Below are positions 5,127 to 28,374 of a DNA stretch of 43,945 nt, piece after piece. The notes beneath the pieces were generated by a model. The model was not told the DNA's origin and ran no database searches. It saw nothing but the letters and a program-made list of their open reading frames with translations. Location of the stretch: NCBI GenBank assembly GCA_021199235.1, contig JAJQIL010000104.1, forward strand, positions 1 to 43,945, written 5' to 3'. A program made the translations under genes and the position numbers. This stretch comes from Lachnospiraceae bacterium. GTDB lineage: Bacteria; Bacillota; Clostridia; Lachnospirales; Lachnospiraceae. Position 1 is the first letter of the stretch; each line of letters begins with the position of its first letter.

Positions 5127-6596
5127 TTAAAATACGAGAATAAACACTTTTCCTTTTGAATCATTTACAATACGTCTCATTGCATTTTGAAGTTTAGCCT
5201 GGCAATCCTCGTTGACGGAAAGCAGTTTGGCTCGAATCCCATCCTCCACCATCTGTTCAATCGTTTTTCCAAAAATCAGCGTGCTTCTGGCTCCGTCTTC
5301 AGTCTTTTCATTTTCTTTTATATAGACGATCAGTTCTTTCGCCTGCTCTTCGTTCCCGACAATCGGGGACAGCTCCGTAATTACTTCTGAACGCAGCAGA
5401 TGTATTGACGGAGCTTCCGCGGTAATTTTCACACCGAACCGGTTTCCCTGACGGAAGACAGAAGGTTCTCTGATCACCACTTCCTCCTTTAAGGGCGGAA
5501 TTATGCCATAGCCGGTCTGACGAACTGAATGCAGCGCTTCCGCAATCCTGTCATATTCCTTTTTCTTTTCCGAAATCTCGCTGATCAGGGAAATCAGCTG
5601 GTATTCGCTGTGTATGTCCGCGCCTGTCATTTCACTTAATACCTCATAATAAAGCGAATCCTGAAGGCTCAGCACAATGTCCGCGCTTCCGTCTGACAGA
5701 TCCGTATGTTCTGATTTTGCGCGTTTAATATAAGGATTACCGCATATAAAATCCGCCCCGTTTATATCGCGAACCCTGTGAAGCCCCTTCATGGCAGTTT
5801 TTGCGGTATCGAAAAGAGACTGCTTCAGCCAGTGATCCGGTGCAAGCATCTGGACCCACCCGGGTATTCGAAATACAACACGCACCAGAGGAAATTCCTG
5901 CAGGCACTCGCTTAAGATCTGACGGATATCTTCTGCTGTCAGCTGTTCACAGTCATATGGCTTTGCGAATACACCATATGACGAGGAAATCCGTTCCGCA
6001 CAGGATATCGCCGCCGCTGAATCCGGTCTGGCAGAATTAACAATCACTACAAATGGCTTACCAAGCTTCTGAAGCTGTCCGATTGTCATTTTTTCCGCTT
6101 CCAAAAACTGTTCTCCCGGAATATCTCCAAAGCTGCCGTCCGCGGTAATGACCAGGCCTATGGTCGCATGCTCATTGATTACTTTCTCTGTCCCGATTTT
6201 TGCCGCTTCCGAAAGAGGCACCGGTTCCTTCTTCCAGGGTGTTTTTACCATTCTGGGATTCCCATCTTCCATCATACCTTCCGCGCCCTGCACAGGAAAG
6301 CCAACGCAGTCCACAAGACGCACAGACATTGTGCTTCCGTCACCGACCGGAAGGCTGACCGCTTTTTGCGGGATGAACTTTGGCTCCACTGTGGTGATCG
6401 TTTTTCCGGAACCGCTCGCCGGCATTTCGTCCCTGGCCGCACTGCGTACGGGCTCTTCCAGTACCGGAAGAACGAGCTGTTCAATAAATTTTCTTGCAAA
6501 GGTAGATTTTCCAGTCCGCACAGGGCCTACAATACCCACATAGATTTCACCGTTGGTCCGCGTGCGGATGTCCCTGTATAAATCAAATTTTTCCAT
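5127..6596 (-). CDS. spoIVA: Stage IV sporulation protein A (spore coat ATPase)
   Basis: A 489-residue protein, close to the 492 residues of Bacillus SpoIVA. SpoIVA polymerises on the forespore surface using ATP and is the platform on which the spore coat is built. The N-terminus MEKFDLYRDI leads into the family's Walker A segment GPVRTGKST (24-32). VDCVGFPVQGAEG follows as the Walker B/switch region, and FVVIVNS sits at the base-recognition position. The C-terminal half (residues about 240-489) is the polymerisation region typical of the family. The ATG at 6596 is chosen over upstream in-frame starts because it fits the family N-terminus and follows AGGGGGT. A terminator at 6674-6720 separates it from the riboswitch transcript. 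A sigma-E promoter is expected but not clearly visible. Confidence 0.93.
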   Translation of the reverse strand: MEKFDLYRDIRTRTNGEIYVGIVGPVRTGKSTFARKFIEQLVLPVLEEPVRSAARDEMPASGSGKTITTVEPKFIPQKAVSLPVGDGSTMSVRLVDCVGFPVQGAEGMMEDGNPRMVKTPWKKEPVPLSEAAKIGTEKVINEHATIGLVITADGSFGDIPGEQFLEAEKMTIGQLQKLGKPFVVIVNSARPDSAAAISCAERISSSYGVFAKPYDCEQLTAEDIRQILSECLQEFPLVRVVFRIPGWVQMLAPDHWLKQSLFDTAKTAMKGLHRVRDINGADFICGNPYIKRAKSEHTDLSDGSADIVLSLQDSLYYEVLSEMTGADIHSEYQLISLISEISEKKKEYDRIAEALHSVRQTGYGIIPPLKEEVVIREPSVFRQGNRFGVKITAEAPSIHLLRSEVITELSPIVGNEEQAKELIVYIKENEKTEDGARSTLIFGKTIEQMVEDGIRAKLLSVNEDCQAKLQNAMRRIVNDSKGKVFILVF

Positions 6597-6673
6597 AAAA
6601 AGACCCCCTGCATCAATATCTGGCACTAATCCAATATATGCAGAGGGTCGTATGATTATGTATAAAATTGTAA

Positions 6674-6720
6674 AGGCACAATCTTTTTCAGGCATTGCGG
6701 ACTGCCCTGAAAGATTGTGC
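6674..6720 (-). terminator. Strong hairpin ending the riboswitch transcript
   Basis: Minus-strand arms GGCACAATCTTTCAGG and CCTGAAAAAGATTGTGCC pair over most of their length around a 13-nt loop and are followed by TTTACAATTTT. It lies about 300 bases beyond the cobalamin aptamer and 78 bases before the spoIVA start, so it should insulate spoIVA from the riboswitch promoter. Confidence 0.7.
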
Positions 6721-6823
6721 CTGTTCGTACAGATCAGCTTGCGGAACGTCATCTGTACGCGTCTCAGAAAAATCTCCGGATGTACAAACAGCCGAAAACC
6801 ATCCTGACACAAGGAGGTATGCT

Positions 6824-6952
6824 GTGAATTGCTCATTGCCTCGAGACAACATTCCATTTCTTATGATGTATCCTGATTCTAAGATCAGGGACTCGTCTGT
6901 TTCCCCATCACAGACTTCAGCTGTCCGAAGGCATCTTACAGCTCTACGCTGA
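6824..6952 (+). CDS. Possible small DUF4250-like protein
   Basis: A 42-residue plus-strand ORF with a GTG start and a near-perfect ribosome-binding site (AAGGAGGT, 5-base spacing). That strength of site is unlikely by chance for such a short frame. The N-terminus SLPRDNIPFLMM, then SKIRD, resembles the DUF4250 pattern (LPxDPxxLLSxxNTKLRD), but the domain is normally about 55-60 residues and the C-terminal half here does not match well. It may be truncated or a different small protein. It lies antisense to the transcript downstream of the cobalamin riboswitch. Confidence 0.4.
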   Translation: MNCSLPRDNIPFLMMYPDSKIRDSSVSPSQTSAVRRHLTALR

Positions 6953-7021
6953 TTCAGAAAATAATGCCTGTACATAACAGCCGGCGGAGTGTTCAGCTTT
7001 ACTCGGAAGCTCTTCTCTCAC

Positions 7022-7228
7022 ACCAAGCAGGTTTCCTGACTCACAGATCAATGCTCAATCTCCCCTTCTCACGCTTTACGTGCCGCCAAAACATCCGACA
7101 TATCAACACTCGGTGTCCGGCTAATTAAAATCCCGCACGTATTGGGTACGCAATGGAATCAATGAGATCTCACTCCCTGTATACAGTGACCGGATCGCTC
7201 AGGCTTCTCACCTGATTCCCTTTTCAGT
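7022..7228 (-). ncRNA. Cobalamin riboswitch
   Basis: Read on the minus strand the hallmarks of the cobalamin aptamer occur in order. First comes GGGAATCAGGTGAGAAGCC, then GGTCACTGTATACAGGGAGTG. A long variable peripheral region follows, and the conserved B12-box end GAGTCAGGAAACCTGC lies at about 7026-7042. A consensus-like promoter lies directly upstream (7277-7305). No cobalamin transport or synthesis gene follows. The next 300 bases hold only ORFs without ribosome-binding sites, then a terminator, then spoIVA. It lies just past folD, the last gene of the leftward Wood-Ljungdahl unit, so it cannot control that unit in cis. Confidence 0.9.
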
Positions 7229-7276
7229 CCATAAAAGAACTGCACTTGACGCGGCAATATTGAATTACACATCAAA

Positions 7277-7314: not shown

Positions 7315-8169
7315 TCAGATTCCGGCCTTCTTTGCTGCCGCCTCAACGACATGGCTCACAAGCACGGAAGTAGTCACACTGCCGACGCCGCCCGGTACCG
7401 GTGTGATTGCTTCTACGATCGGCTCCACTGCTGCGTAATCGACATCGCCGCAGAGCTTGCCTTCCGCATTGACATTGATACCAACGTCAATGATGACCTG
7501 ACCCGGCTTGACATATTCCGCACCAACAACTCCGGCACGTCCGGCTGCTACAATAATGATATCCGCTTCTCTGGCAACAGACGGCATATCAACCGTTCTG
7601 GTGTGGCAGATGGTGACGGTCGCATTTTTCTTTACAAGCATCATTGCTGCCGGCTTGCCAACCACGAGGCTTCGGCCGATGACTACGGCCTTCTTGCCGG
7701 TGCAGTCGATCCCGTAATGATCCAGGATCTCCATGCAGGCCTGCGGGGTACACGGCGGGTATCCGACTGCCTTACCGGTAAATACGCCGGACATAGAGCC
7801 ATCCGTCATGCAATCCACGTCCTTTGCCGGATCAAGAGCGTTCTCAATCACATTCTGATCCAGATGCTTCGGCAGCGGACGGAACAGGAGAACGCCGTGA
7901 ATCGCGTCATTCTTATTGACCTCATCGATTACCTTCAGAAGCTCATCCTGTGAAACATCTGCAGGAAGCAGGATTTTTTCACATGCCACACCGAGTGTCT
8001 CGCAGCGCTTTGTAGCGCCTCTTTCATAGGAAATATCGCTCTCATTTTCTCCAACACGGATGATGCCGAGAGTCGGCTTTACACCTTTCGCTTCAAGTTC
8101 AGCTACTTTTGCCTTAATGCGCTCATTCAGAGCCGCAGTAACCTCTTTTCCAAGGAGCTGCTTTGCCAT
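7315..8169 (-). CDS. folD: Methylene-THF dehydrogenase (FolD family), probably lacking cyclohydrolase activity
   Basis: A 284-residue FolD-family protein of normal length. It reduces 5,10-methenyl-THF to methylene-THF in the methyl branch. The dinucleotide-binding domain is intact: VVIGRSLVVGKPAAMML (about 162-178), ATVTICHTRT, DVGIN and TPVPGGVGSVT. The cyclohydrolase active site is altered. In SYERGATK the position of the catalytic Lys (E. coli Lys54, in Y-x-x-x-K) is Ala52, and in GVLLFRPLP the position of Gln98 is Phe96. The usual VDGFHP segment reads VDCMTDGS. The cyclohydrolase step is therefore probably done by FchA, encoded immediately upstream. It is the last gene of the rnfC2-metV-metF-DUF3786-fchA-folD unit. 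Confidence 0.9.
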   Translation of the reverse strand: MAKQLLGKEVTAALNERIKAKVAELEAKGVKPTLGIIRVGENESDISYERGATKRCETLGVACEKILLPADVSQDELLKVIDEVNKNDAIHGVLLFRPLPKHLDQNVIENALDPAKDVDCMTDGSMSGVFTGKAVGYPPCTPQACMEILDHYGIDCTGKKAVVIGRSLVVGKPAAMMLVKKNATVTICHTRTVDMPSVAREADIIIVAAGRAGVVGAEYVKPGQVIIDVGINVNAEGKLCGDVDYAAVEPIVEAITPVPGGVGSVTTSVLVSHVVEAAAKKAGI

Positions 8170-9814: not shown

Positions 9815-10693
9815 TCAGATTCCTGCCTGCTCAAGCAGCGCCGGAACCTTGGATTCCCAGCCAAGCGCCATGATATGTACGCCCTGACAGTACGGCTTAC
9901 ATTCTTTGATAATACGTGCAGCGATCTCTATACCGGTAATACCTGCTTTGGTCTTTTCTTTGTCTGCACGGAGCTCATCCAGCATCTCCTGCGGCACATG
10001 GATACCCGCCACATTATCGTTCATATACTTCGCCATACCGGCCGACTTCGGAATAACGATACCGAGCTGTACCGGCTTGCCGAACTGTTTCGCTTTTTCC
10101 ATGAATTTAATGAATTTTTCCGGTTCATAAACAGCCTGAGTCTGGAAATAATCCGCTCCGGCAGCTACCTTACGCTCCATCTTCGCCAGCTGTGCATCCA
10201 CGGAATCGCTGCACGGGGATACGACTGCGCCTTTCGCGAACTTCGGCGGTTCTCCCACGAGCTGATTCCCGCCAAGATCCACGCCGGACTCCAGAAGCTT
10301 CGCTGTATGGATCAGTGAAACGGAATCCAGGTCAAAAACAGGCTTTGCCTGCGGATGATCGCCAAGCTTTGTATGATCACCGGTCAGAAGCAGCACATTC
10401 TCAATGCCAAGCATCGCAGCACTTAAAAGATCAGACTGCAGCGCGATCCGGTTCCGGTCACGGCAGGTGATCTGGAAGATCGGGGTCAGCCCCTCATCCT
10501 TTAATGCCTTACAGGTAGCCAGAGAGCCAAGACGCATGACAGACGACTGGTTATCCGTTACGTTGACAGCCGTGATGCCGCTCAAGTATGTCTTCGCTTC
10601 TTCCAGCAGATTCTCAATGTGGCAGCCCTTTGGCGGCCCGACTTCTGCTGTGACTACAAACTCACCACGTTCAAATAATTCTGTGATTTTCAT
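9815..10693 (-). CDS. metF: Methylene-THF reductase, flavin subunit
   Basis: A 292-residue MetF-family TIM-barrel protein that reduces methylene-THF to methyl-THF with FMN or FAD. Visible family features are FVVTAEVGPPKG at the N-terminus (the conserved acid after the first strand), NVTDNQSS, VLLLTGDH (flavin contact), YFQTQAVY and LGIVIPKS. AGGAG precedes the start. It follows metV by 28 bases in the order rnfC2-metV-metF. This matches the heterotrimeric NADH-oxidising reductase of Acetobacterium woodii, so the protein probably works in the cytoplasm as a MetF-MetV-RnfC2 complex. Confidence 0.93.
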   Translation of the reverse strand: MKITELFERGEFVVTAEVGPPKGCHIENLLEEAKTYLSGITAVNVTDNQSSVMRLGSLATCKALKDEGLTPIFQITCRDRNRIALQSDLLSAAMLGIENVLLLTGDHTKLGDHPQAKPVFDLDSVSLIHTAKLLESGVDLGGNQLVGEPPKFAKGAVVSPCSDSVDAQLAKMERKVAAGADYFQTQAVYEPEKFIKFMEKAKQFGKPVQLGIVIPKSAGMAKYMNDNVAGIHVPQEMLDELRADKEKTKAGITGIEIAARIIKECKPYCQGVHIMALGWESKVPALLEQAGI

Positions 10694-10721: not shown

Positions 10722-11345
10722 TTATTTAGCAACTTCCTGATCAGTCGCAAAATTGCGGATCTGTGTCGGGCATTTCAAAGCATCCAGACGTCCGATCTTT
10801 TCCAGCCTGCGGTAAATACGTTCCCAGCCGCAGTCCATGTTCGGATCGACCTCGCATTTGCCGTTCTTGGAACCGCCGCACTGGCCATTGACCAGGCTCT
10901 TGGAGCAGGCTGTGATCGGACAGATGCCTCCGGTCAGATTCAGATAGCACTCGCCGCACTGACCGCAGTCATATTCCAGCGGCGTAACACCCTGAAAGCC
11001 CGGCAGACGGCTCGTATCGCAGCACGCACAGACCTTCTTGTCTTCCAGATAAGAAGCCACCGTCTGTACGCCGACGCCGCAGGAAAAGACAAGCACCACG
11101 TCCGCAGCCTCGATCTCAGCCTTATGCCCTTCCAGGCGAACCTTCAGATTGTCCGGATTGCAGATATAATCCGTCGTCAGAATGCCGGTCACGCTTCCGT
11201 TGGCGTGCAGTTCCTCCTGAAGCTGTGCCGCCTCCTCAAGAGGAAAGTACACTTCTCTGCATCCATGGCAGTTGATGATGAAAGCTTTCTTTCCATCAAC
11301 GAGGGAGAGGATGGTTTCTTTTGATTTTAATTCGGTAATCAGCAT
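10722..11345 (-). CDS. metV: Methylene-THF reductase iron-sulfur/zinc subunit MetV
   Basis: A 207-residue cysteine-rich protein of the MetV family (MTHFR C-terminal-like). It has an N-terminal alpha/beta part (FIINCHGCREVYFP, VLVFSCGVGVQT). The Cys-rich block follows: CACCDTS, DCGQCGECYLN, GGICPITACSKS, NGQCGGSKNGKCEV and DCGWERIYRRL. MetV is needed for electron delivery to MetF. Its start lies 1 base after the rnfC2 stop codon, a coupled arrangement. It closely resembles the N-terminal third of the neighbouring RnfC2 protein (QCYLNVTGGICPI against ECYLNLTGGICPI), so the two probably arose by duplication. Confidence 0.92.
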   Translation of the reverse strand: MLITELKSKETILSLVDGKKAFIINCHGCREVYFPLEEAAQLQEELHANGSVTGILTTDYICNPDNLKVRLEGHKAEIEAADVVLVFSCGVGVQTVASYLEDKKVCACCDTSRLPGFQGVTPLEYDCGQCGECYLNLTGGICPITACSKSLVNGQCGGSKNGKCEVDPNMDCGWERIYRRLEKIGRLDALKCPTQIRNFATDQEVAK

Positions 11346-11346
11346 A

Positions 11347-13332
11347 TCACTTCATCCCCCTTACTGCCGTTTTTCCGGCCTTGATCTTTGTCACCAGCGG
11401 AATCTTGGAGGAGCAGATATACTCACAACAGCGGCATTCCAGACAATCCATCACGTGCTGGTCTTTCATCCCCTGCCAGTTCTCCTCATCCGCGTACTTC
11501 GCGAAGTAGAGAGGTTTCAACTCCATCGGACAGACATCCATGCAGCGTCCGCACTTGATGCAGGGCTGCTCCGCCGTGTGATCGGTGTCCACGCAGATGA
11601 TGCCGTTCGAGCCCTTCATGATCGGGACATTCAGGTCTTTTAAGACAAATCCCATCATCGGCCCGCCAGCCTTATATGTAATCTCTCCGTCTCCAACAAC
11701 ACCGCCGCAGTAATCGATCAGATCCTTCGTGTTCGTACCGATCTTCACGATGTAATTACCCGGATTCTTCAGGCGCTCACCGGTCACGGAAACGACACGC
11801 TCGATGAGCGGCATGCCCTTCTGGATCGCGTCTGAGATTGCCTTTGTTGTGCTGATATTGCTTACCACACAGCCGACATCCGCAGGAAGTCCGCCGCTGG
11901 GTACCTGACGCTTCATCACACGCTTGATCAGCATCTTCTCAGCGCCCTGCGGGTATTTGGTCTTTGCCACTACGACATCCAGATTGTCATAGTCCGCGAC
12001 TTTCGCCTTCATGACCTCGATCGCGTCCGGCTTGTTGTCCTCGATCACGATCAGGCCCTTTTCCGCGCCAACTGTCTTCACGATCGCACGCAGACCGAAT
12101 ACGATATCATCCGCATACTCCAGCATCACACGGTGATCCGCTGTCAGATATGGCTCGCACTCGCAGCCGTTCAGCAGGATCGTGTCCACCGGCCTGGCCG
12201 GTTTGAGCTTGACAGACGTCGGGAAGCCTGCGCCGCCCATGCCGACGATTCCGGCTTCTTTTACGATATCGATGATCTCTTCCGGAGTCAGCTCCTCCAG
12301 GGACTTGTGCGGCTTCACAGAATCATCCAGCGTATCCTTGCCATCCGACCGGATCACAACGGCCGGACAGGTGCCTCTGGTCGCGTGTCCATGATCCTCG
12401 ATCGCAATAACCGTACCGCTCACGCTCGAATGTACCGGGCTGCTGATAAAGCCTGCGGATTCGCCGATCTTCTGGCCGACCTTTACGGTATCTCCCACTG
12501 CCACGACCGGGGTCGCCGGAGCGCCCGCATGCATGGAGAGCGGAATCACTACCGTCTCCGGCTCCGGAAATTTCTGCAGGGCAATCTGCTCTGTATATTC
12601 CTTTTTCTCAAGAGGATGCACTCCTCCGTAATAGCCGTCGAGCCTGTTTTCCCGAATGGAAGTCACATAGTCATGTACAAATTTGAAGCTGGTCTTTGAA
12701 TAATCCCGCATCTGCACCGGCTGATTCAGGAATTCCTCCAGTCTTCCCTGCTTTTTGAGTCTCTGGTAAATCTTCTCCCACGCGCAGTCCTTGTTCGGAT
12801 CTACTTCACACTTGCCGTTCTTCGCGCCGCCGCACTGGCCATTGACCAGACTCTTGGAGCAGTCAACGATCGGACAGATACCTCCAGTCACGTTCAGATA
12901 GCACTGCGCACATGCATCGCAGGCCTTGTCTGTCAGCGCCATGCCGTGATGTCCGGTGTAATTCAGCGAATCCGTTGCAGAAAAAACCGGAATCGACTTC
13001 GATTCAGAACCTTCCGTCTGCATATCCGCTATCGTCTGAATCCCCAGTCCGCAGGAGACTACAAAGATGCTCTCCGTTCCTTCCGGAACCATGTCAGAAA
13101 GCGTTTTTGCCGTCTGTGTTTTGTTACACAAAAAATCGACCCTCGCGCTTCCCGTGATGGTCTTCCCTTCTTCGGCAGCAATTTTCTCAAACTCAGCAAG
13201 CTCCGGCTCTTCGACGGTATTGAACTCCTTAAAGCATTTATTGCAGGAGATCACAAAAATATGATCCGTCCCGGATAATGCCTGCGCCAGTTCCTCGCGA
13301 GTTTTCAGCCTGTACTTGGTGTAGTCTTCCAA
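11347..13332 (-). CDS. rnfC2: RnfC2: MetV-like domain fused to an RnfC-like NADH dehydrogenase
   Basis: A 661-residue fusion. Residues 1 to about 215 repeat the MetV fold with its Cys-rich signature (CAQCYLNVTGGICPI, NGQCGGAKNGKCEVDP). Residues about 235-661 are RnfC-like: biotinyl-lipoyl-like segment GDTVKVGQKIG, flavin/NADH loop GMGGAGFPTSVKL (364-376), NGCECEPYLTADH, and two 4Fe-4S sets (C591, C594, C597, C601; C630, C633, C636, C640). It is taken to oxidise NADH and pass electrons through MetV to MetF, as in A. woodii; no membrane segment is seen. The start is TTG at 13332, supported by AAGGAGGT about 6 bases upstream. It is the first gene of the second Wood-Ljungdahl unit. Confidence 0.9.
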   Translation of the reverse strand: MEDYTKYRLKTREELAQALSGTDHIFVISCNKCFKEFNTVEEPELAEFEKIAAEEGKTITGSARVDFLCNKTQTAKTLSDMVPEGTESIFVVSCGLGIQTIADMQTEGSESKSIPVFSATDSLNYTGHHGMALTDKACDACAQCYLNVTGGICPIVDCSKSLVNGQCGGAKNGKCEVDPNKDCAWEKIYQRLKKQGRLEEFLNQPVQMRDYSKTSFKFVHDYVTSIRENRLDGYYGGVHPLEKKEYTEQIALQKFPEPETVVIPLSMHAGAPATPVVAVGDTVKVGQKIGESAGFISSPVHSSVSGTVIAIEDHGHATRGTCPAVVIRSDGKDTLDDSVKPHKSLEELTPEEIIDIVKEAGIVGMGGAGFPTSVKLKPARPVDTILLNGCECEPYLTADHRVMLEYADDIVFGLRAIVKTVGAEKGLIVIEDNKPDAIEVMKAKVADYDNLDVVVAKTKYPQGAEKMLIKRVMKRQVPSGGLPADVGCVVSNISTTKAISDAIQKGMPLIERVVSVTGERLKNPGNYIVKIGTNTKDLIDYCGGVVGDGEITYKAGGPMMGFVLKDLNVPIMKGSNGIICVDTDHTAEQPCIKCGRCMDVCPMELKPLYFAKYADEENWQGMKDQHVMDCLECRCCEYICSSKIPLVTKIKAGKTAVRGMK

Positions 13333-14438: not shown

Positions 14439-16448
14439 TTATTTCATTGTCACGGTCGGGAAGAGCCCCGCGTCCGTGTGCGGCAGGAAACAGCTTGCCA
14501 CAAATTCGTCCATATAAGTCGGCTCATTACTGAGCTCAAGGTATGTCATATTGTGCGCAACCTCGGAAACTTTTGCCTCCGCCTCATTCGACAGCAGGAT
14601 CGCGTAAGCACCGGACAGGGAAGAATTGCCGATATAGGTGAACTTCTCCATGTCGATATCCGGGAACATACCAATGGACACGGCGTTACGCATATTAATG
14701 CCGCTGCCGATACCGCCTGCCACATAGACATGGTCAATCATGGAAACATCAAAGTCCAGAGACTGCAGCATCACACGGATGGCGGAGAAAATCGCCCCTT
14801 TCGCACGGATGAAGCTGTCGATATCGACTTCAGTAATCTCAATATCTTTTACAGAGGCCGCATTTTCTTTGTATTCCAGCACAAAGCTGCCCATGCCGTA
14901 CTGGTCATGGCGGACCCGCTCACCCTCGCGGATAAACTTACCCTTCGGGCTGATGATTCCGCAGCGGAACAGCTCACTGATCACATCGATGATGCCGGAA
15001 CCGCACAGGCCGACCGGCTTCTGTCCTTCATCGCCGACAATGGTAAAGGTTGGTTCCATTGTGTCCTTATCGATCACACAGGCCTCGATCGCGCCGTACG
15101 TCGCGCGCATGCCGCAGCTGATGTCGCCGCCCTCAAATGCGGGTCCTGCTGAGCAGGCACAGCTCATCATGAATTCCGAGTTGCCGAAGACGAGCTCGCC
15201 GTTCGTACCCAGATCGATAAACAGGGACATTTCGTCTTTGTTCCAGATCGTGCTGGAGAGCGTACCGGCGGTAATATCTCCTCCCACGTAGCTGCCGATA
15301 TTCGGAGCCATAATTACGCGGGCATGCTCGTAAAGGTGAAGCCCCAGGTTCTGCGCAAAGACGGAATCCGTCTCAAAAAAGGTCGGGATAAACGGCTCCA
15401 TACGGACCGGATCCGCATCCACGCCGAGCAGCAGATGATTCATCGTCGTGTTGCCTGCAATGCTCGCACGATAGACCTGCCGCGGTGAAATGCCGATCGA
15501 ACCGCACATCTGATGGATCATTGGGTTGAGCGTCTCTTTGATGATGGCGTCCTGCAGTTTTTTACGGCCGCCTTCTTTCTGCTGTTCGATAATCCTGTTG
15601 ATCACATCCGCTCCGTAACGGATCTGGCCGTTTCCGGAAGATCCTTTCGCAAGGATTTCTCCGGTGATCATATCAATAATCAGTGCTGATACAGTTGTTG
15701 TACCGATGTCCACAGCAAGGCCGCATACCTTCACGTCGTCAGCGGCCGGATAGATATCCAGCACTTCGACTTTATCTTCCTGCGCCTTCCGAATGACGCA
15801 TTTTACCGCAAAAGAACTGTTTCTGAGAGTCTCCGCAAGCTTTTTGAGCACAACAAAAGTCAGCTTCACCTTAGAAACACCGCAGGCGGCCTCGACTGCC
15901 CAGATCAGGCGTTCGTTATCCGGCATGGTGTCGTCCAGAGACGGCTCGTCCATCTGTACAGTAACAACCTCGAAATCGTTGTGAAAAGCAATCCCTGCTT
16001 CAACCATATCCGCCTTGGTTTTTTCAAATATCTGTATTTCCTCCGCCGAACTTAGGTCCGCTACTTTCATCCGGCTGCGATATGCGGAAGCGATATCCGG
16101 TACCAGCACTTTCACAGCACCGTCCAAATGCGAAGCATTTTCCTCCGTGGACGGTGCGTCCTGCCGCCGAACAGAGTGAGGGGGCGCTTCCTTAACCGCT
16201 TTAATCTTGCTCACGCAGGCTAACCTCCATCCCTGCGCAAACTCCTCATCGGAGATATGACTGGTCTTTTTCGTATCCAGATCACCGCCGACGAGTTTTA
16301 CTTTACATTTTCCGCAAGCTGCATTTCCATTACACGGCGCATCGATCGCGACATTCATCTTTTTGGCCACATCCAGAAGGCTCTCACCTTCCAGAGCGTA
16401 TCCTACTGTCTCGCTGCCGTTCTCAAATTGAAAAGTCACCTTAAACAT
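14439..16448 (-). CDS. acsV: Reductive activator of corrinoid Fe-S protein
   Basis: A 669-residue protein of the RACo/AcsV family, which uses ATP to return inactive Co(II) corrinoid Fe-S protein to Co(I). Residues 1 to about 85 are a plant-type 2Fe-2S ferredoxin with Cys39, Cys45, Cys48 and Cys78 (PCNGNAACGKCKV). A linker follows, then an ASKHA-type ATPase region starting GLAVDIGTTTVSALI, with SLFIDLGTNGELVFG and GLCGSGIIDVISEL further on. The ATG at 16448 is preferred over 16463 because GGAGAG lies 7 bases upstream. It is the last gene of the first Wood-Ljungdahl unit and follows acsE, which fits its job of keeping AcsCD active. Confidence 0.93.
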   Translation of the reverse strand: MFKVTFQFENGSETVGYALEGESLLDVAKKMNVAIDAPCNGNAACGKCKVKLVGGDLDTKKTSHISDEEFAQGWRLACVSKIKAVKEAPPHSVRRQDAPSTEENASHLDGAVKVLVPDIASAYRSRMKVADLSSAEEIQIFEKTKADMVEAGIAFHNDFEVVTVQMDEPSLDDTMPDNERLIWAVEAACGVSKVKLTFVVLKKLAETLRNSSFAVKCVIRKAQEDKVEVLDIYPAADDVKVCGLAVDIGTTTVSALIIDMITGEILAKGSSGNGQIRYGADVINRIIEQQKEGGRKKLQDAIIKETLNPMIHQMCGSIGISPRQVYRASIAGNTTMNHLLLGVDADPVRMEPFIPTFFETDSVFAQNLGLHLYEHARVIMAPNIGSYVGGDITAGTLSSTIWNKDEMSLFIDLGTNGELVFGNSEFMMSCACSAGPAFEGGDISCGMRATYGAIEACVIDKDTMEPTFTIVGDEGQKPVGLCGSGIIDVISELFRCGIISPKGKFIREGERVRHDQYGMGSFVLEYKENAASVKDIEITEVDIDSFIRAKGAIFSAIRVMLQSLDFDVSMIDHVYVAGGIGSGINMRNAVSIGMFPDIDMEKFTYIGNSSLSGAYAILLSNEAEAKVSEVAHNMTYLELSNEPTYMDEFVASCFLPHTDAGLFPTVTMK

Positions 16449-16512
16449 AGTTTTTCTCTCCATATGTATTCTGTATCACTAAAAACTAACGTAATTGAAA
16501 ATGCATATTGAT

Positions 16513-19940: not shown

Positions 19941-20228
19941 TGAAAATTAAGACTCGAAAAAATGCTGCGAATTCCACTATCTGGTCTACATTGTAGACTC
20001 GAAAAAAGCCATGACTCTCTGCGGGGAAATTCTCGCAAGTGAGTGAGTTCCTCTAATTGGCTTACATTGTAGACTCGAAAAAATGCTGCGCATTTTTTCT
20101 CGTTAAAGAATCAATGCTCTTCCTCGCAGGATTCCCCGCAAGCGGGGAATCCTTGCTCGTCGATCATACGGGGATTTGCTAAAGCAAATCCCCTAAGACG
20201 GCGACGGAGTCGCCGTCTTTGATTCTTT
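19941..20228. repeat. Repeat-rich, multi-hairpin spacer between acsB and acsD
   Basis: Three copies of GACTCGAAAAAA lie at about 19951, 19994 and 20072; two are extended to TACATTGTAGACTCGAAAAAA in pieces. Beside them GAAAAAATGC and GCATTTTTTC form a 10-bp hairpin. To the right, an outer pair AAAGAATCAA (about 20105-20114) and TTGATTCTTT (20219-20228, covering the acsB stop codon) encloses three stems: GGATTCCCCGC/GGGGAATCC, GGGGATTTGCT/AGCAAATCCCC and GACGGCGAC/GTCGCCGTC. In RNA this is a four-way junction. It could slow RNA decay or partly terminate transcription downstream of acsB. No ORF is present. Confidence 0.7.
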
Positions 20229-22353
20229 ACATCATTGGCTCCATGCCAAGTGCCGGATGGCCTTTCTCGGTCAGGAACTCAAGTAATGCTTCCGGATCAT
20301 CGCTAACTACGGTCTCGTCCGCAATCATGTCCGTAAAGTTATCGATTCCGTAAAGCTCTTTCGCCGACTCATTCAGGCGTTCCGCAACCTGATCTTTGAG
20401 ATCCTTCGGCATCCAGACGATACGTGCGATTCCGCCCTCTGCCTTCATGAACTTCTTCGATGAGATGAAGTGCTTGCCATGTCCCATGAAGCCCGGTGTC
20501 TGTACACCGCCGCCGGTCATGGATGCCAGCTCGGAGAACGTCATGCCGATCGGGGTCATGCCCGCGTACTCACGGTTCGCGATGCAGACGCCGTTGGAAA
20601 GAGGCTCGATACCGCAGATGCACTCGAAGCAGCCGCAGCTTGTCATCGGCTTCTCGATGATGGAGTACAGGGATACATCTTCCAGTGCACCCTGAGAGAA
20701 CTTACGAACCGCCTCATTGACGTCTTCGTACTCACCGATACGCTCATCGATGACCTTCTCCTTGGTGATCACCTGGCACGGTCCCTGCGGATCCAGCTCG
20801 TTGGTCGCCTTTGCATCCAGCCATGATACAGCACCGCACAGACCCAGACGCTCCGGAGTAACTACGCAGACATGGCTCGGAGAGAATGCCTGACACATAA
20901 TGCAGCTATAATAAACATCCACGCCCTCATCAGTCAGAGTCGTCAGACGCTCGTCACGTTTATCAAACATCGGAATCGCCAGCTCATGACGAAGCTTTGT
21001 ACACATCTCCGGATCAGTGATGACCTTTACCTGACACTTGTCTACAACCGCAGCGAACTCGCTCTTTACCTTCGCGTAAAGGACTTCGCCGATGTGTTTT
21101 GCACGGAAGCCCGCGTTGAAGGTATCTTTGCTGATACGGATACGGATCATATCACGCTGACCGGTATGCATCACACCCTCGATGCAGTTCAGATAGGAGT
21201 GGAATTTACGCTCAAACACCGGCTCGAAGTCTGCCTGCATGCTCTTACCGGCCACCTCTACTATGTAGCCGATGGAGTGCTTGCTGCCTGCCTCAAACTC
21301 GTCAATATCCGGTCCGATGACTTCAATCTTGTGATCCTCGACCTCAGAAGCCTCTTTGGTATGAACCAGCTCGAAGCAGTCTACACGGGAACCGTCAAAT
21401 TCAACTTGCATATCACCGCGGCGGATGATCTCTCCCTCGAATGCGGAAGCGAACGCTACCGGGATGTCGATGTTGGTAATCTTAAGCTTGATGTCACGGG
21501 CTTCCAGAGAAGTCGCGTTGAACTTGGATACATCCTTCTGTACGATCAGGCTCTTCGGTACACGGAAGGTCTCTTCATTCGTGATAACCGGGAAGCCAAG
21601 AGCAATCGCGCCGGCACCGGCTGCTACGATCACTTCATTCAGCGGAGCAAATGCGTTCACAAATGCCGGAACACGCTCCATCGTATACTTCATAAGACCA
21701 GCTGCGTCACCCGGTGTGATGTTGCCAAAGATCAGAGCCGCTCTTACAGCAACGGATACGACATGGATCACAGCCGTGATGTCCTTGCCAAGCGGGATTA
21801 CACGTACATTCGCGCCGGTCTTGTAACCCAGTTCTGTACACTGATCAATAATATCGCCGACCAGAGTCACCAGAATACCCTGTGCCTGATAGCTCTTTAC
21901 CAGAGCAACGCCTTCCTCAGCGGTCGGAGCGGCACCGATGATAACCGCAACGCCCGGGATATCGCCGGTAACAAGCGGTACACCCAGCTCACGGATCACT
22001 GCATCCGCAAGATGACCATAACACGGCTCCTCATACGGAGTCGGATTGTCAATATACTTCAGCACTTCAATAAATTCCGCGCAAAGTGCAGTCGCGATAC
22101 CGGACATGAACGCATCGTTCATTCTCGGATTTCTGGTCATCAGAGTCTTTACAACGCCAAGAGCCTCTTTGAGTTCTCCCAGATTGCCGACCTTTGTACC
22201 TGTTACTCCGTAATAACACGGAATGCTGTAAGCGGTATCCGGAAATGCTACCGGCTTATCTGCGCCATACTTTGCGATTGCATCGTCAATCGCAGTTTCC
22301 GTGAGACCATATACTGCGTCATTTCCTTTAAAAATAACATCAAATAAAGTCAC
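20227..22353 (-). CDS. acsB: CO-methylating acetyl-CoA synthase
   Basis: A 708-residue protein that condenses CO, the corrinoid methyl group and CoA to acetyl-CoA, in complex with CODH. All six A-cluster cysteines are present: C484, C487, C496 and C506 (CIMCQAFSPSHVC, GLCGAVSW) and C573 and C575 (SCGCFECICG). Their spacing is identical to Moorella C506-C597. The N-terminal domain (SIPCYYGVTG, GVAVIIGAAPTAEEG) carries the CO tunnel and CODH contact. The start is GTG at 22353 with AGGAGG 7 bases upstream. It follows the CODH-like fragment gene by 35 bases. Confidence 0.97.
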   Translation of the reverse strand: MTLFDVIFKGNDAVYGLTETAIDDAIAKYGADKPVAFPDTAYSIPCYYGVTGTKVGNLGELKEALGVVKTLMTRNPRMNDAFMSGIATALCAEFIEVLKYIDNPTPYEEPCYGHLADAVIRELGVPLVTGDIPGVAVIIGAAPTAEEGVALVKSYQAQGILVTLVGDIIDQCTELGYKTGANVRVIPLGKDITAVIHVVSVAVRAALIFGNITPGDAAGLMKYTMERVPAFVNAFAPLNEVIVAAGAGAIALGFPVITNEETFRVPKSLIVQKDVSKFNATSLEARDIKLKITNIDIPVAFASAFEGEIIRRGDMQVEFDGSRVDCFELVHTKEASEVEDHKIEVIGPDIDEFEAGSKHSIGYIVEVAGKSMQADFEPVFERKFHSYLNCIEGVMHTGQRDMIRIRISKDTFNAGFRAKHIGEVLYAKVKSEFAAVVDKCQVKVITDPEMCTKLRHELAIPMFDKRDERLTTLTDEGVDVYYSCIMCQAFSPSHVCVVTPERLGLCGAVSWLDAKATNELDPQGPCQVITKEKVIDERIGEYEDVNEAVRKFSQGALEDVSLYSIIEKPMTSCGCFECICGIEPLSNGVCIANREYAGMTPIGMTFSELASMTGGGVQTPGFMGHGKHFISSKKFMKAEGGIARIVWMPKDLKDQVAERLNESAKELYGIDNFTDMIADETVVSDDPEALLEFLTEKGHPALGMEPMM

Positions 22354-22388: not shown

Positions 22389-23081
22389 TCAGATTTCAAT
22401 TGCCTGACGCTTTTTCTCGATGTCCGCGATCAATGCGTCCGCAAGTTCATCAAGACTGGCAGATACAGTGTGCTTCGCCTCTGCTCCATCCTTCAGACCG
22501 CTGGCCGCGATCACGTCCTCAAGTGCGCCTTCATAAGGCATGATACCGATAAATGTATCTACCCCAAGTCCGACAAACGTATTGCCAAGCTCCACTGCCT
22601 GAGCAGTCACACCTGCGGCATCACAGCCCACGACCGGCAGCTGCGGTACGGAAAGTCCGGAATCTGCCGAAAGGGCCTGTGCAATCGTGACGACATTGCC
22701 AATGTTTTCCAGTCCGCCAAGCGGCAGCACTGGAGGAATCTCCGCCAGTTCACAGACACGCTTCAGCCCCGCGCCGCACAGATCCTTCGCTTCCGGATTC
22801 AGAAGCCCCGCATCTGCTGCCACCGTGACCGGATAACCAATTGCGAGCACAACAATATCGTTCGCGATCAGCTTTTTGATCAGAGCCGTATACTCGTCCT
22901 TGTCCCGTACATCTGAACCATCTGTGCCAAGTAAAACTGCCGCGCCGCGTAGAACGCCGGACACAACACAGTCCAGCAGCGGCTTTGTGGAGCCGGTCGA
23001 ATCCACCTTCGAATTACAAACGCCATCCAGCGCCTGGATGATGTCCGCTACTTCAAGCTTCGGTAATGCAGAATCACTCAT
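22389..23081 (-). CDS. Stand-alone CODH C-terminal domain paralogue without C-cluster ligands
   Basis: A 230-residue protein that aligns along its length with the last about 230 residues of the AcsA encoded nearby. Shared blocks include KDLCGAGLKRVCELA, IPPVL, QLPVVGC, GLDTF/GVDTF and the closing EKR. The three C-terminal C-cluster cysteines of AcsA (C451, C481, C522) are replaced by Thr53, Tyr83 and Leu124. The N-terminal part of CODH with the B and D clusters is absent. It therefore cannot bind the Ni-Fe-S site. The frame is intact and in an operon position between cooC1 and acsB, preceded by GAGG, so it is unlikely to be a dead fragment. It may be a structural or assembly partner of CODH/ACS (inference). 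I know of no named family for it. Confidence 0.85.
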   Translation of the reverse strand: MSDSALPKLEVADIIQALDGVCNSKVDSTGSTKPLLDCVVSGVLRGAAVLLGTDGSDVRDKDEYTALIKKLIANDIVVLAIGYPVTVAADAGLLNPEAKDLCGAGLKRVCELAEIPPVLPLGGLENIGNVVTIAQALSADSGLSVPQLPVVGCDAAGVTAQAVELGNTFVGLGVDTFIGIMPYEGALEDVIAASGLKDGAEAKHTVSASLDELADALIADIEKKRQAIEI

Positions 23082-23250
23082 TTCATTCGCCTCTTTTCTT
23101 TCTTGTTGAATATCATTAACAGGGAACGATCACAGTTCGCAGGAAAAGTCTGATACACGTCCGGTTCCCTGCGGGTCGTTACTTATATTTATACCAACAG
23201 ATTGCATTTTTTGCAACTGAAATTAATATATTCTGCACACTTTTTGGTTC

Positions 23251-23425: not shown

Positions 23426-24199
23426 TTAGAAAGAACTTGACTTATCCAGAATCTCCTTGATCGCGCGAATCTCGTTCACTGCAGTCTTACTGTAATCGTA
23501 AGGCGAAGAACCGTTCCGGTCCGCGTCGATAACTTCGGTATTGTAATGGATCACACCGAGCAGATCCTCAGCCGGGATTTTCGCGCGGATAAATTCCTCA
23601 TCCTTATCATCCCGCACCTTGTTGGCTACCACATAAACCTGCTTCACGCCAAGATCATCGGCAAGGCGTTTTACATTACGATAAGTCTGCACGCTTCTCG
23701 CACCCGGTTCGATCACAACGATAAATGCGTCCATCCCGCTCGTCGTCCCGCGCCCGAGGTGCTCAAGGCCGGCCTCCATGTCAAGGATGACCACATCATC
23801 TGAGCGGAGCATCAGGTGATTAATGATCCGTTTCAGCATCACATGCTCCGGGCAGACACATCCGCTCCCGCCGGTCTCCACTGTTCCAAGGACGAGAAGC
23901 TTCACGCCATTGCATTTCTTCGCGTATTTATCCGGGATATCATCTACCTTCGGATTCAGCTTGAAAATCTTGTTGAATTCATCCGCGCCGGTGCGTTCCT
24001 GCACCAGCTTCCGCATCTTGGTGATCGGCACGATCGCATCCAGATCTTCTTCGTCAAAACCGAGCGCCAGGCCAAGGTTCGCATCCGGATCAGCGTCCGC
24101 AGCCAGCACGGAGCGGCCCTCGTCCGCATAAAGCCGTGCCAGCGTCGCCGCAAATGTCGTCTTACCTACCCCGCCCTTTCCGGTAATTGCAATCTTCAT
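23426..24199 (-). CDS. cooC: CODH nickel-insertion ATPase CooC
   Basis: A 257-residue SIMIBI-class ATPase. The deviant Walker A GKGGVGKTT is at 7-15, and AADADPDANLGLALG follows as switch I. The CooC metal motif Cys114-x-Cys116 (SGCVCPEH), at the dimer interface, binds Ni or Zn. It is taken to drive nickel insertion into the CODH C-cluster, and perhaps the acetyl-CoA synthase A-cluster, upon ATP hydrolysis. It sits directly after acsA with a repeat element between. Two CooC-type genes flank acsA; they differ enough to suggest different targets. This one has VLDMEAGLEHLGRGT and ends with a short Ser-rich tail. Confidence 0.92.
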   Translation of the reverse strand: MKIAITGKGGVGKTTFAATLARLYADEGRSVLAADADPDANLGLALGFDEEDLDAIVPITKMRKLVQERTGADEFNKIFKLNPKVDDIPDKYAKKCNGVKLLVLGTVETGGSGCVCPEHVMLKRIINHLMLRSDDVVILDMEAGLEHLGRGTTSGMDAFIVVIEPGARSVQTYRNVKRLADDLGVKQVYVVANKVRDDKDEEFIRAKIPAEDLLGVIHYNTEVIDADRNGSSPYDYSKTAVNEIRAIKEILDKSSSF

Positions 24200-24464: not shown

Positions 24465-26357
24465 TCAGATACCTAAAGCAGTTCTCTTTTCTTCGATCCG
24501 CTCGATCATCTTGTCAACGAGCTTGTCAATATCCGTCTCTACCGTGTAGGCAGCCTCTACCCAGTCGCGGATGCCGTTCTGCAGCAGATCTTCTACCTCA
24601 GAAGAGCCTGCAGCGTACGGATCTACGCCAAGGAAGGTATCAAGACCGGTCGCTACTACATAGTTACCGATGGATACAGCCTTCTCGGACATCCACTCCG
24701 GTGCGCAGCCGACTACCGGAAGCTGGGAAATGTTCCAGCCGGAGTCCTTCGCCAGGTCCGCAACCAGAACCATCATACGGCTGATATCTACACAGGAGCC
24801 CATGTGAAGTACCGGCGGAATGTCAGCCAGCTCACAGACTCTCTTCAGTCCCGCGCCGCAGAGATCTTTTGCTCTCTTATCCATCAGACCAGCTCTTGCC
24901 GCTGCCTGTGCGGAGCAGCCGGAAGCTACGATCACAATATCATTCTCGATCAGCTTCTTCATCAGAGCGATGTGTGCGGTATCCGGACGAACCTTCGGGT
25001 TGTTGCAGCCTACCATCGCGACAGCGCCGCGGATAACACCGGAATTGATACACTCAACCAGCGGCTTCAGTGTGCCGGTCTCATCAACCTGAGAGTTGGT
25101 AACGGTATCCAGGGTCTTCTTAATCGCTTCTACAGAATAACCAACGGTTGCTTTCTGCTTCAGCTGCGGGATATGTACAAGCTCCGGCTTGCGGTTCTTA
25201 AAGTTCTCGATCGCCATCTTTACGATCGCTTTTGCGTTCTCACCAGCGTTCTCCGGTGAGAAACGGATATAATCGCTCTCCGGCATCTGCGCGATCGGAG
25301 AAGTCGTGATGAACTTGGTATGGAAGCATTTTGCCAGCGGTCCGATTGCCGGGAAAATACACTGTACATCCACTACAATCGCCTCACAGGCACCGGTCAG
25401 GATGACATTCTCCTGCTGAAGGAAGTTACCCGCCATCGGGATACCGCGGCGCATCGCTACCTCATTCGATGTACAGCAGACACCGGATACCGTAATGCCC
25501 TTTGCGCCCATCTCTTTCGCATATGCGATCATTTCCGGATCATCCGCATACTCGCAGATCATCTCAGAAAGCGACGGATCATGGCCGTGTACAACAATAT
25601 TTACATTTTCCTCAACCATAACGCCAAGGTTGGCTTCGGTGTCGATCGGCTTCGGTGTGCCAAACAGGACGTCGGAGAACTCGGTACCTGCCATGGAACC
25701 GCCCCAGCCATCAGCAAGACCTGCTCTGAGGGACTGACGGATCAGCGCTTCCGGCTTGGAAGAACATCCCATATGGGTCATATGCATCGCGCAGGAAACC
25801 TCGCGGTCAATCGCACGCGGCTGAATCTCTGCCTTCTCCCACAGCTCCTGTGTGTGCTGCGGTGCACGCTTCAGGAAATTCTGGAAGCCAAATACCTTAC
25901 CATACTCGCCAAGAGCAAGGACTGCCATCTCATGAGCCAGATCATAGATGTCCTTGCCTTCTGTCTCCACGCCCCACTCATGAGCGATGCGGATCAGCTT
26001 TTCCGGATCCTTTACTTTATAGTTGCCGTCCGGGGATGCACAATACAGTGTGTGGCAGATCTCACGGCCGTGGTCCGAGTGTGTCGCGGCTCCGCCGGCA
26101 GTAAATCTCAGGAAATTACGTCCAACGATACCATGTGCATCGCAGCCGCAGATTCCACGCGGTGCCTTCGGCGTAATGCGGCACGGTCCCATCGAACAGA
26201 TACGGCAGCAGACACCCTGCTCACCAAATTTGCAGTGCGGTGTCTGGTTCTTCACGCGGAACTGATATGCGTCCGCTCCTACCTTTGCACCTGTCTCGAG
26301 GAGCCGGTTCGTAGCTGCCTCAAACTCCTCAATTGTTGTCAGCTTAAAGTCTCCCAT
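24465..26357 (-). CDS. acsA: Carbon monoxide dehydrogenase catalytic subunit
   Basis: A 630-residue Ni-containing CODH that reduces CO2 to CO for acetyl-CoA synthase. D/B-cluster cysteines lie at C42, C50, C51, C54, C59 and C70 (CKFGEQGVCCRICSMGPC, GICGCDAHG). C-cluster ligands are His259 (HGHDPSLSE), Cys294/295 (SGVCCTSNE), Cys333 (DVQCIFPA), Cys451 (VGCNNPKV), Cys481 (SGCSAQAA) and Cys522 (MGSCVDISR). All are present, so it should be active. The ATG at 26357 is chosen for GGAGG 5 bases upstream; the longer frame upstream has no ribosome-binding site. It is flanked by cooC2 and cooC1, which fits co-production with its maturation factors. Confidence 0.97.
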   Translation of the reverse strand: MGDFKLTTIEEFEAATNRLLETGAKVGADAYQFRVKNQTPHCKFGEQGVCCRICSMGPCRITPKAPRGICGCDAHGIVGRNFLRFTAGGAATHSDHGREICHTLYCASPDGNYKVKDPEKLIRIAHEWGVETEGKDIYDLAHEMAVLALGEYGKVFGFQNFLKRAPQHTQELWEKAEIQPRAIDREVSCAMHMTHMGCSSKPEALIRQSLRAGLADGWGGSMAGTEFSDVLFGTPKPIDTEANLGVMVEENVNIVVHGHDPSLSEMICEYADDPEMIAYAKEMGAKGITVSGVCCTSNEVAMRRGIPMAGNFLQQENVILTGACEAIVVDVQCIFPAIGPLAKCFHTKFITTSPIAQMPESDYIRFSPENAGENAKAIVKMAIENFKNRKPELVHIPQLKQKATVGYSVEAIKKTLDTVTNSQVDETGTLKPLVECINSGVIRGAVAMVGCNNPKVRPDTAHIALMKKLIENDIVIVASGCSAQAAARAGLMDKRAKDLCGAGLKRVCELADIPPVLHMGSCVDISRMMVLVADLAKDSGWNISQLPVVGCAPEWMSEKAVSIGNYVVATGLDTFLGVDPYAAGSSEVEDLLQNGIRDWVEAAYTVETDIDKLVDKMIERIEEKRTALGI

Positions 26358-26486: not shown

Positions 26487-27257
26487 TTATAAACCAATTT
26501 TACTCATGATCTCCTCCAGTGCTTTGCGCACGGGAGAATCCTCCGGCAAAGAGGATGTAGGTCTGCCTTCGCAGTCGTACTCATAAACCTGTTCATCCTG
26601 CGGTACGATTCCAAGGAGCTTTAATCCGCTTTTCTCAATCTCCTCTTTGGTACCAGCATTCAGCACGCCGCCGGGTGCCCGGTTCACGATCAGGCCCATT
26701 GTCTTCGGATTCAGATGGCATTCTTCAACCAGTTCCGCGATCCGCTCTGTCGCCTGAACGCCTCGTCTGGAACAGTCGCTTACCAGGATCATCGTATCAA
26801 CCTTCGGCAGAATGCCGCGGCTGATATGTTCCATACCCGCTTCATTATCCACAACCACATACTTGTAGTTCGGAATCAGCTTCGCCAGCTGCGCCTGCAA
26901 AAGTCCATTCACATAGCAGTAACATCCCTGTCCCTGCGAACGCCCCATCACCAGAAGGTCAAAATCATCATCTTCTGCCAGACATCGCTGCAGCATCATT
27001 TCGGTGTAATCCGCTTTCGTCATACCGGACGGAATGTTCTGGTTCAGCCTGTCCGCATCGTGCAGAACCGTCTCACGAACATCTCCGAGCGTCATCTCCA
27101 CATCTACACCGAGCACTTCATTCAGATTGGAATTCGCGTCGGCGTCGACAGCGAGGATCGGGCGCTCCCCCTTCCGGCACATCGTCTGGATCAGTAGACC
27201 GCCTAACGTGGTCTTGCCCACACCGCCTTTACCTGCAATCGCAATTACATGTGCCAT
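26487..27257 (-). CDS. CooC/AcsF-type ATPase for CODH or ACS maturation
   Basis: A 256-residue P-loop ATPase with Walker A GKGGVGKTT (9-17), VDADANSNLNEVLG (switch I) and the Cys112-x-Cys114 motif (GQGCYCYVN) of the CooC family. It differs from the CooC encoded on the other side of acsA: MGRSQGQGCYCYVNGLL and VVVDNEAGMEHISRG place it nearer the second CooC/AcsF branch found in acetogen clusters. The role is inferred as ATP-driven nickel delivery to CODH or acetyl-CoA synthase. Upstream are cooT and a His-rich gene, recalling the cooCTJ operon of Rhodospirillum rubrum in content. Confidence 0.88.
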   Translation of the reverse strand: MAHVIAIAGKGGVGKTTLGGLLIQTMCRKGERPILAVDADANSNLNEVLGVDVEMTLGDVRETVLHDADRLNQNIPSGMTKADYTEMMLQRCLAEDDDFDLLVMGRSQGQGCYCYVNGLLQAQLAKLIPNYKYVVVDNEAGMEHISRGILPKVDTMILVSDCSRRGVQATERIAELVEECHLNPKTMGLIVNRAPGGVLNAGTKEEIEKSGLKLLGIVPQDEQVYEYDCEGRPTSSLPEDSPVRKALEEIMSKIGL

Positions 27258-27739: not shown

Positions 27740-28177
27740 CTACGCCTGACTGTCGGAACTGTCAGAGACCATGGAAAGCGCCAGTCGCAGGTAAAGATTG
27801 CCCTTTTGAAACTCATCAACCGCTTTCCTGATCTGATCGGCAGCATCCGCTTTACCGCCTGCACGAAACTGTTCCGCTACCTGATCAAGCTCCGCCGCGT
27901 GGTGCTCGTTGTGTTTGAGCATATAGTCAAGCAGCGCTGTCATCTTATCTCCCGACGGCACCTCGTGCGCATGGGCCTCGCAGGAACCGCAGTGTGTATG
28001 ATCTCCGTCCGCTCCATGGCAATGTGCCTCACCATGCTCATGAGTGTGGTTGTGATCGTCCTCCTGACCATGCACATGAGTATGCGGATGAGAATGCTCA
28101 TACGTGTGGGTATGGGTGTGCTCATGTTCATGCCCGTGCTGGATCAAATTTCCATTTTCATCCTGAATCAGATGCAT
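27740..28177 (-). CDS. Histidine-rich metal-binding protein, CooJ-like in role
   Basis: A 145-residue protein in two parts. Residues 1-72 hold 22 histidines, mostly in His-x-His alternation (HEHEHTHTHTYEHSHPHTH) with three Cys (C53, C63, C66). Residues about 75-145 form a charged helical domain (TALLDYMLKHNEHHAAELDQVAEQF). The composition implies strong Ni or Zn binding or storage. As the first gene before cooT, cooC2 and acsA it takes the place CooJ has in R. rubrum, although CooJ carries its His-rich region at the C-terminus, so homology is not claimed. The ATG at 28177 follows AAAGGGG. A promoter lies about 190 bases upstream. Confidence 0.82.
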   Translation of the reverse strand: MHLIQDENGNLIQHGHEHEHTHTHTYEHSHPHTHVHGQEDDHNHTHEHGEAHCHGADGDHTHCGSCEAHAHEVPSGDKMTALLDYMLKHNEHHAAELDQVAEQFRAGGKADAADQIRKAVDEFQKGNLYLRLALSMVSDSSDSQA

Positions 28178-28374
28178 AACTGATCCCCTTTCTTTTAATT
28201 GTACATGACTGTTAAATTGATTCTCACAGTAATGGCAATGCTTTCTTTCGAAGGGTATCACAAGCGGCATCAGACAATGCAGAATACCGCATTTGAACGG
28301 CTATAAATGCTATGATTGTTAAATTTTTCACGTTCAAGCACACAAATATAGCATCCCCCCGGTAAGGATATCTC

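Follow-up and report, generated by a model that had tools for sequence, protein, structure and literature searches.

The window analysed here, the whole stretch of 43,945 nucleotides of a Lachnospiraceae bacterium (GCA_021199235.1, contig JAJQIL010000104.1), carries an operon for CODH/ACS, a central enzyme of acetogenesis that is considered very old. Within this operon, an additional gene encodes a small protein, hereafter P, that consists of a stand-alone second Rossmann fold of CODH. The genes and signals around P are the following:

20227–22353, minus strand: acsB, acetyl-CoA synthase of 708 residues (NF040764 above cut-off).
22389–23081, minus strand: the P gene, an open reading frame of 230 residues with an ATG start.
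23088–23093, minus strand: likely ribosome-binding site of P, GAGGCG, which is also present upstream of P in 24 of 24 related loci (L060–L083).
23426–24199, minus strand: cooC1, a P-loop ATPase (CbiA family match) and the next gene upstream of P.
24465–26357, minus strand: acsA, a full-length CODH of 630 residues from the ATG at 26357, with the C-cluster cysteines present (TIGR01702 above cut-off; alignment).
26487–27257, minus strand: a second cooC-like P-loop ATPase upstream of acsA (open reading frame, family match and locus comparison).

The open gene, its ribosome-binding site, and its place between cooC1 and acsB are as an earlier note on this DNA had described them. The name cooC1 is that of the earlier note, and no library model gave it. 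Downstream of P, acsB is followed by further CODH/ACS operon genes; the names cooC, acsC, acsD, acsE, and acsV are putative, being in part those of the earlier note. AcsB is collinear with the ACS of Clostridium autoethanogenum (6ytt_A), phmmer aligning residues 1–708 to 1–708. Just upstream of the second cooC lies a His-rich open reading frame with HEHEHTHTH stretches (27740–28270, minus strand) that may handle nickel; it has no match in Pfam or NCBIfam, and frames of this kind lie upstream of acsA in both P-carrying and P-less loci.

P aligns end to end with the last third of AcsA, as had been claimed from the sequence: residues 1 and 230 of P pair with AcsA 399 and 630, respectively (AcsA counted from the ATG at 26357), the two proteins of this genome share 47% identity, and KDLCGAGLKRVCELA is identical in both in the alignment. 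The match to a CODH chain of the PDB is beyond chance (phmmer E 2.7e-29). In Pfam, P matches PF03063 Prismane with 86.2 bits (gathering score 27) over model positions 345–485 of 513, and no other family was found at E 0.001; TIGR01702 is matched with 90.6 bits—under its cut-off of 478—over model positions 417–618 of 621 only. All library matches of P are thus Prismane or CODH models over their last third. The structure model gives a fold match to the Prismane/CODH superfamily, which agrees with the earlier claim of a retained fold core. P is a CODH relative by homology and, by its length, its score against the cut-off, and its ligands, not a CODH enzyme.

The closest relative of P is the second Rossmann fold of Ni-CODH, the C-terminal third of AcsA/CooS (C. 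autoethanogenum CODH, 6YTT), from which P differs in being free-standing, in lacking the helical domain and the first Rossmann fold, and in having the ligands and the acid–base lysine replaced. The sites concerned, together with one retained element, are the following:

22923–22925, minus strand: Thr53, at the site of the AcsA C-cluster ligand C451 by alignment; Thr in 17, Gly in 7, and Cys in 2 (L080, L082) of 26 orthologues.
22833–22835, minus strand: Tyr83, where AcsA has the ligand C481; Tyr in all 26 orthologues.
22704–22724, minus strand: residues 120–126, PLGGLEN, in place of AcsA HMGSCVD, which includes the ligand C522 (L124 in P); the same in 26 of 26.
22599–22601, minus strand: Gln161, at the site of the acid–base lysine K559 of AcsA; Gln in 26 of 26.
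22956–23018, minus strand: residues 22–42, the counterpart of the loop and helix (alpha-A) by which C. autoethanogenum CODH docks onto ACS; sequence retained, helix 33–40 in the model.

AcsA K559 is taken to correspond to K563 in the CODH-II of C. hydrogenoformans, a residue named in PDB titles. The replacement of C451, C481, and C522 by T53, Y83, and L124 is borne out by the alignment. The statement that exactly the metal ligands were lost goes too far: the loss of the ligands stands, but 37 sites at which at least 95% of AcsA domains have one residue carry a different conserved residue in P, including H>P120 and K559>Q161, while 66 AcsA-conserved sites are retained in P and 25 are variable in P (26 P compared with 69 of 73 AcsA domains, 4 being left out). 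The replaced sites cluster at the active site, in P residues 51–57, 82–90, 120–129, and 154–163, where the P–AcsA identity amounts to 0.15, 0.30, 0.15, and 0.26; between AcsA and C. autoethanogenum CODH, the same four segments have identities of 0.99, 0.87, 1.00, and 1.00.

The docking segment, P residues 22–41, behaves in the opposite way, with a P–AcsA identity of 0.64 versus 0.36 for AcsA against C. autoethanogenum CODH; it ranks 9th of 197 overlapping windows, a descriptive rank with no test attached, and residues 91–120 are also well retained. According to Biester et al. 2024 (PMC11474084), the CODH–ACS contact of C. autoethanogenum is formed by a loop and a helix at the start of Rossmann fold 2. 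In the model of P, the helix spans residues 33–40 and the docking loop has low confidence, with residues 23–27 under pLDDT 50; alpha-A was set at residues 33–41 by eye, matching GVLRGAAVLLG of P to GDIPGVAVIIG of the N-terminal (A1) domain of ACS. Judged by sequence and by the predicted helix, P retains the ACS-docking element of the C. autoethanogenum-type CODH, and this retention points to ACS as the partner of P. Gene conversion between P and AcsA was rejected as the source of the retained segment, the mean identity being 0.46 to the AcsA of the same genome and 0.46 to that of other genomes.

A scan of 47 genomes of the genus gave full-length P in 22 (the window's own included) at 82–100% identity and P cut by a contig end in one (G209); among the 37 genomes that gave a match, 14, in part fragmentary, show CODH without P, and the remaining 10 gave none. 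A scan of named genomes gave 26 loci, namely 25 with full-length P (L060–L084) and one in which P runs off the contig (L085). Since 21 of these 25 loci pair, by equal scores, with genomes already in the genus scan, full-length P is present in 26 genomes—the window and L060–L084—with 25 different protein sequences, the more distant being L082 at 79% and L084 at 70% identity. The carriers are assigned to Lachnospiraceae, Clostridiales, and Eubacteriales, two (L079 and L081) being Marvinbryantia MAGs. No stand-alone orthologue was found elsewhere among the matches listed in 200 and 397 genomes of the family, 392 of the order, 341 of the class, and 348 of the phylum; these matches are full CODH frames, pieces at contig edges, a remnant in genome G142, or short frames, and other genera have AcsA without an adjoining P among the matches listed. 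Four of the short frames (L187–L190) were inspected, others such as G105:C143, G328:C200, and G753:C116 being left out, and the four were rejected as P orthologues: L187 is a split acsA, L188 and L190 are partial CODH frames, and L189 (374 residues) keeps GC, GC, and GPC motifs. In L187 (G1269:C4, 2241–4194, minus strand), the acsA directly before acsB is broken into two overlapping frames, 416 and 259 residues long, either by a frameshift or as a natural division close to the domain boundary of P. No match to P was found in viral contigs, and the plasmid search gave one, at 39.8%, in a 2.6-Mb Acetoanaerobium record. Hence, P is not general to acetogens: among the matches listed, and apart from the G142 remnant, it is confined to this Lachnospiraceae group.

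The order cooC1–P–acsB of the window recurs in all 24 database loci in which both neighbours of P can be seen (L060–L083), in answer to the earlier question of whether P stays next to acsB; in L085, cooC1 and P are followed by the contig end. The P-less loci L138–L148 (n = 11) have cooC1 followed by acsB in 10 cases, one being cut. The spacers between cooC1 and P range from 41 to 335 bp in L060–L083, and in seven of these 24 loci both spacers are short (41–53 bp before P and 27–33 bp after), which is compatible with co-transcription; the others are longer. Two exceptions are known. In L084, P lies among unrelated open reading frames with its own GAGGAGG upstream, and acsA, cooC1, and the start of acsB are on another contig of the same genome (G760, comprising L084 and L158) with no P between them—a single MAG in which mis-binning is possible. 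The second exception is G142, a genome of another genus with 94% completeness: it carries a decayed remnant of the C-terminal part of P, which has an internal deletion and matches over 37–46 residues, and neither a Prismane-family gene nor AcsB was found in that genome. This single case fits disuse of P after loss of CODH/ACS.

Selection on P is well supported. Nei–Gojobori dN/dS, calculated for 24 of the 26 P genes (L082 and L084 left out) and grouped by the AcsB N-domain types A1 to A3, is 0.053 within type A1 (the window's group, 45 pairs), 0.043 within type A2 (10 pairs), and 0.066 within type A3, which takes in L080 (36 pairs); between groups, it is 0.052 for types A1 and A2 (50 pairs) and 0.071 for type A1 and type A3 with L080 (90 pairs). 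The same domain of AcsA has values of 0.028–0.072. In a tree of Lachnospiraceae AcsA domains, P forms one clade on a long stem of 1.79 changes per site with a support of 100/100. The single clade, the long stem, and the low dN/dS indicate that P arose once in the sampled set, changed strongly, and is now constrained. It probably stems from a copy of Rossmann fold 2 of AcsA, the CODH of a Lachnospiraceae bacterium, its point of attachment among these AcsA domains being tentative. The earlier note would have taken a gene confined to this strain with dN/dS near 1 for a decaying duplication; full length in 26 genomes and values of 0.04–0.07 speak for the selected pseudoenzyme that it had proposed instead. 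P is a real, selected, CODH-derived pseudoenzyme of one uncultured group of gut acetogens.

If alpha-A of AcsA faces ACS, it should vary with the N-domain of ACS, and in part it does. In a comparison of 48 genomes—leaving out L164, L165, and L177, where the frame picked was not AcsB, L167 with no frame, and L065, L080, L081, and L084 with incomplete AcsA or AcsB—AcsA 438 is other than Thr in every one of the 17 rows whose AcsB N/C divergence ratio reaches 1.6, and the ratio is 1.53 or less in 19 of 19 rows with Thr; 12 of the 48 rows, including all 10 of the window's group, are other than Thr without N-domain divergence. The ratio is raw with regard to relatedness and overall divergence and takes four genomes, all of them with Thr, as its reference, so that low ratios are favored for the Thr rows. 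Among P-less rows (18 Thr, 8 other), the median ratio is 1.16 versus 1.71 (Mann–Whitney p 1.4e-4, relatedness ignored). P position 40, which corresponds to AcsA 438, is Thr in the three genomes with AcsA Thr (L080, L082, and G760), Val in all 13 genomes whose ACS N-domain is diverged, and Val in five and Thr in five of the window's group. This co-variation of AcsA alpha-A with the ACS N-domain is partial and involves few lineages; at the level of sequence, it supports a CODH–ACS contact at the helix. As a side observation, the alternation of ITSG with VKSG or VNSG in AcsA alpha-A across Lachnospiraceae is a possible marker of remodelling of the CODH–ACS interface.

The AcsB N-domain itself (residues 1–300; 21454–22353 in the window) is strongly diverged in 13 P-carrying loci (L065, L067, L068, L070, L072–L074, L076–L079, L081, and L083), being 25–28% different from the four reference genomes versus 9–16% in the P-less L138–L148, and the rest of AcsB is like that of other genomes. 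This divergence was first seen only with P; P-less genera have similar N/C ratios (L170 2.36, L174 2.31), and it was therefore rejected as P-specific and dropped as evidence for a link between P and ACS, bearing on the argument solely by way of the co-variation with the AcsA helix. The fit of the N-domain types is as good to cooC1 as to P (1 against 2 changes), and types A1 and A2 are intermixed on the trees of the AcsB C-part and of AcsD, which points to recombination that moves N-domain types; cooC1, P, and the 5′ part of acsB are inherited together as a block. By phmmer alignment, the gating helix of C. hydrogenoformans ACS, as described in PMC12289521, maps to AcsB R121–V128 here.

These results can be joined into a reading in which P, a pseudoenzyme, sits on the face of ACS that docks CODH and serves as a cap, chaperone, or subunit. 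To this reading we give, on sequence grounds, a somewhat less than even chance; ACS is the most likely partner. P would have been made by copying the second Rossmann fold of AcsA, with the C-cluster and acid–base residues gone and the loop and alpha-A kept, the element that docks a C. autoethanogenum-type CODH onto the A1 domain of ACS. It would bind the product of the next gene at that face, most likely ACS free of CODH, where it may shield the opening of the CO tunnel and stabilize A1 while ACS is being assembled, loaded with nickel, or in excess; CODH would then displace it. The decay of P in G142, a genome without Prismane-family gene or AcsB, counts for the link to ACS, and the common occurrence of P-less CODH/ACS operons (the 14 of 37 genomes given above) was counted against it.

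An unlikely alternative sees P as a maturation factor for CODH, which aids nickel loading by CooC1 or keeps the Rossmann folds of AcsA apart: P lies directly downstream of cooC1 in all 25 database loci that show both (L060–L083 and L085), and the block inheritance with cooC1 and the 5′ part of acsB agrees with it, but the surface that bears the C-cluster is the very part that is rewritten in P, and relatives of the same genus have AcsA and CooC1 without P (L138–L141, L146–L148). Improbable as well is a permanent extra subunit of CODH/ACS—scaffold, dock for an electron carrier, or part of the gas channel—in a role like that of the archaeal epsilon subunit. Operon position and strong constraint would suit such a subunit, as would the packing of Rossmann fold 2 of methanogen CODH on ACS in place of A1 (PMC11474084); against it, P has no family match besides Prismane, and motif alignment places Lys33 and Asp/Glu/Ala37 at the positions of the methanogen alcove residues Arg500 and Leu504, which suggests that P is not built like an A-cluster cap. 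The alcove of an A1-like cap is marked by Arg, Ile/Leu, and Val on alpha-A and by Phe on alpha-B; among the 26 P, the alpha-A positions are Lys33 in 26, Glu, Asp, or Ala37 in 16, 5, and 5, and Val or Thr40 in 18 and 8. An hhalign comparison of P or AcsA profiles with ACS A1, based on shallow alignments, gave nothing, so that the alcove mapping is tentative. The archaeal ACDS epsilon subunit (CdhB) is, like P, a small accessory protein with CODH, any likeness being probably one of possible role; its absence among the fold matches listed for P says nothing for or against.

There is little chance that a new pocket (Y83, E125, N126, D154, and Q161) has formed where the C-cluster once sat and that P is a sensor or a regulator binding a small molecule or metal: the replacing residues are the same in 26 of 26 orthologues, beyond what plain loss needs, but this invariance may come from packing or an interface, and no family besides CODH models is matched. 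A decaying partial duplication of acsA, for which the truncation to one of three CODH domains and the decayed remnant in G142 could be cited, is rejected with near certainty, being contradicted by dN/dS of about 0.05, by 26 full-length genes without internal stop, and by the conserved new motifs of a single clade.

For the origin of the A1 domain of ACS, Biester et al. 2024 suggest a duplication of CODH Rossmann fold 2 (PMC11474084). The relation of A1 to the CODH fold is seen here as a fold match and as a weak phmmer hit of AcsB 113–278 to the archaeal CODH chain 8riu_A (E 7.8e-5). A1 forms part of the ACS chain, where it follows a helical bundle, and is far older; P is a gene of its own in one bacterial group, the product of a separate duplication of this fold that selection has maintained next to acsB. 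A doubtful but distinct idea is that P repeats, recently and independently, the event that may have formed A1, in which a CODH fold was copied, stripped of its ligands, and made a dedicated ACS partner at the CODH–ACS joint, as a third component or an alternative end of the gas channel in gut acetogens. P offers a natural test of what such a domain does for its enzyme, and from its sequence one can read which surface was preserved for its value.

The nearest natural parallel of P is the split acsA of C. autoethanogenum (CAETHG_1621/1620), in which, according to the account of this gene in PMC4895105, an in-frame TGA near the same domain boundary sets off some 231 C-terminal residues; there, however, acsA itself is split and partly read through, whereas P is encoded in addition to an unbroken acsA. 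The mini-CooS proteins are, like P, small and CODH-like. In the titles and abstracts of the open-licence literature, no protein like P was found described. One published CODH survey, by its account of hit selection, discarded hits under 550 residues, and a second (PMC8776680), in the corresponding part, kept hits under 400 residues or with changed metal-site residues out of its representatives, shorter ones entering only via 90% clustering; by such length filters, proteins like P could be overlooked.

Elsewhere in the window, an RnfC-type protein with an N-terminal DUF5981 domain (MTHFR C-terminal-like; 11347–13332, minus strand) adjoins a separate DUF5981 protein (10722–11345) and MTHFR (9815–10693). 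A match to the GA-cis RNA (16113–16195, plus strand; 41.6 bits, cut-off 34.7) lies antisense to an open reading frame of 674 residues (14439–16463) and is possibly due to chance. A cobalamin riboswitch (7009–7264, minus strand) is located between a folD-like gene (7315–8169) and spoIVA (5127–6857).
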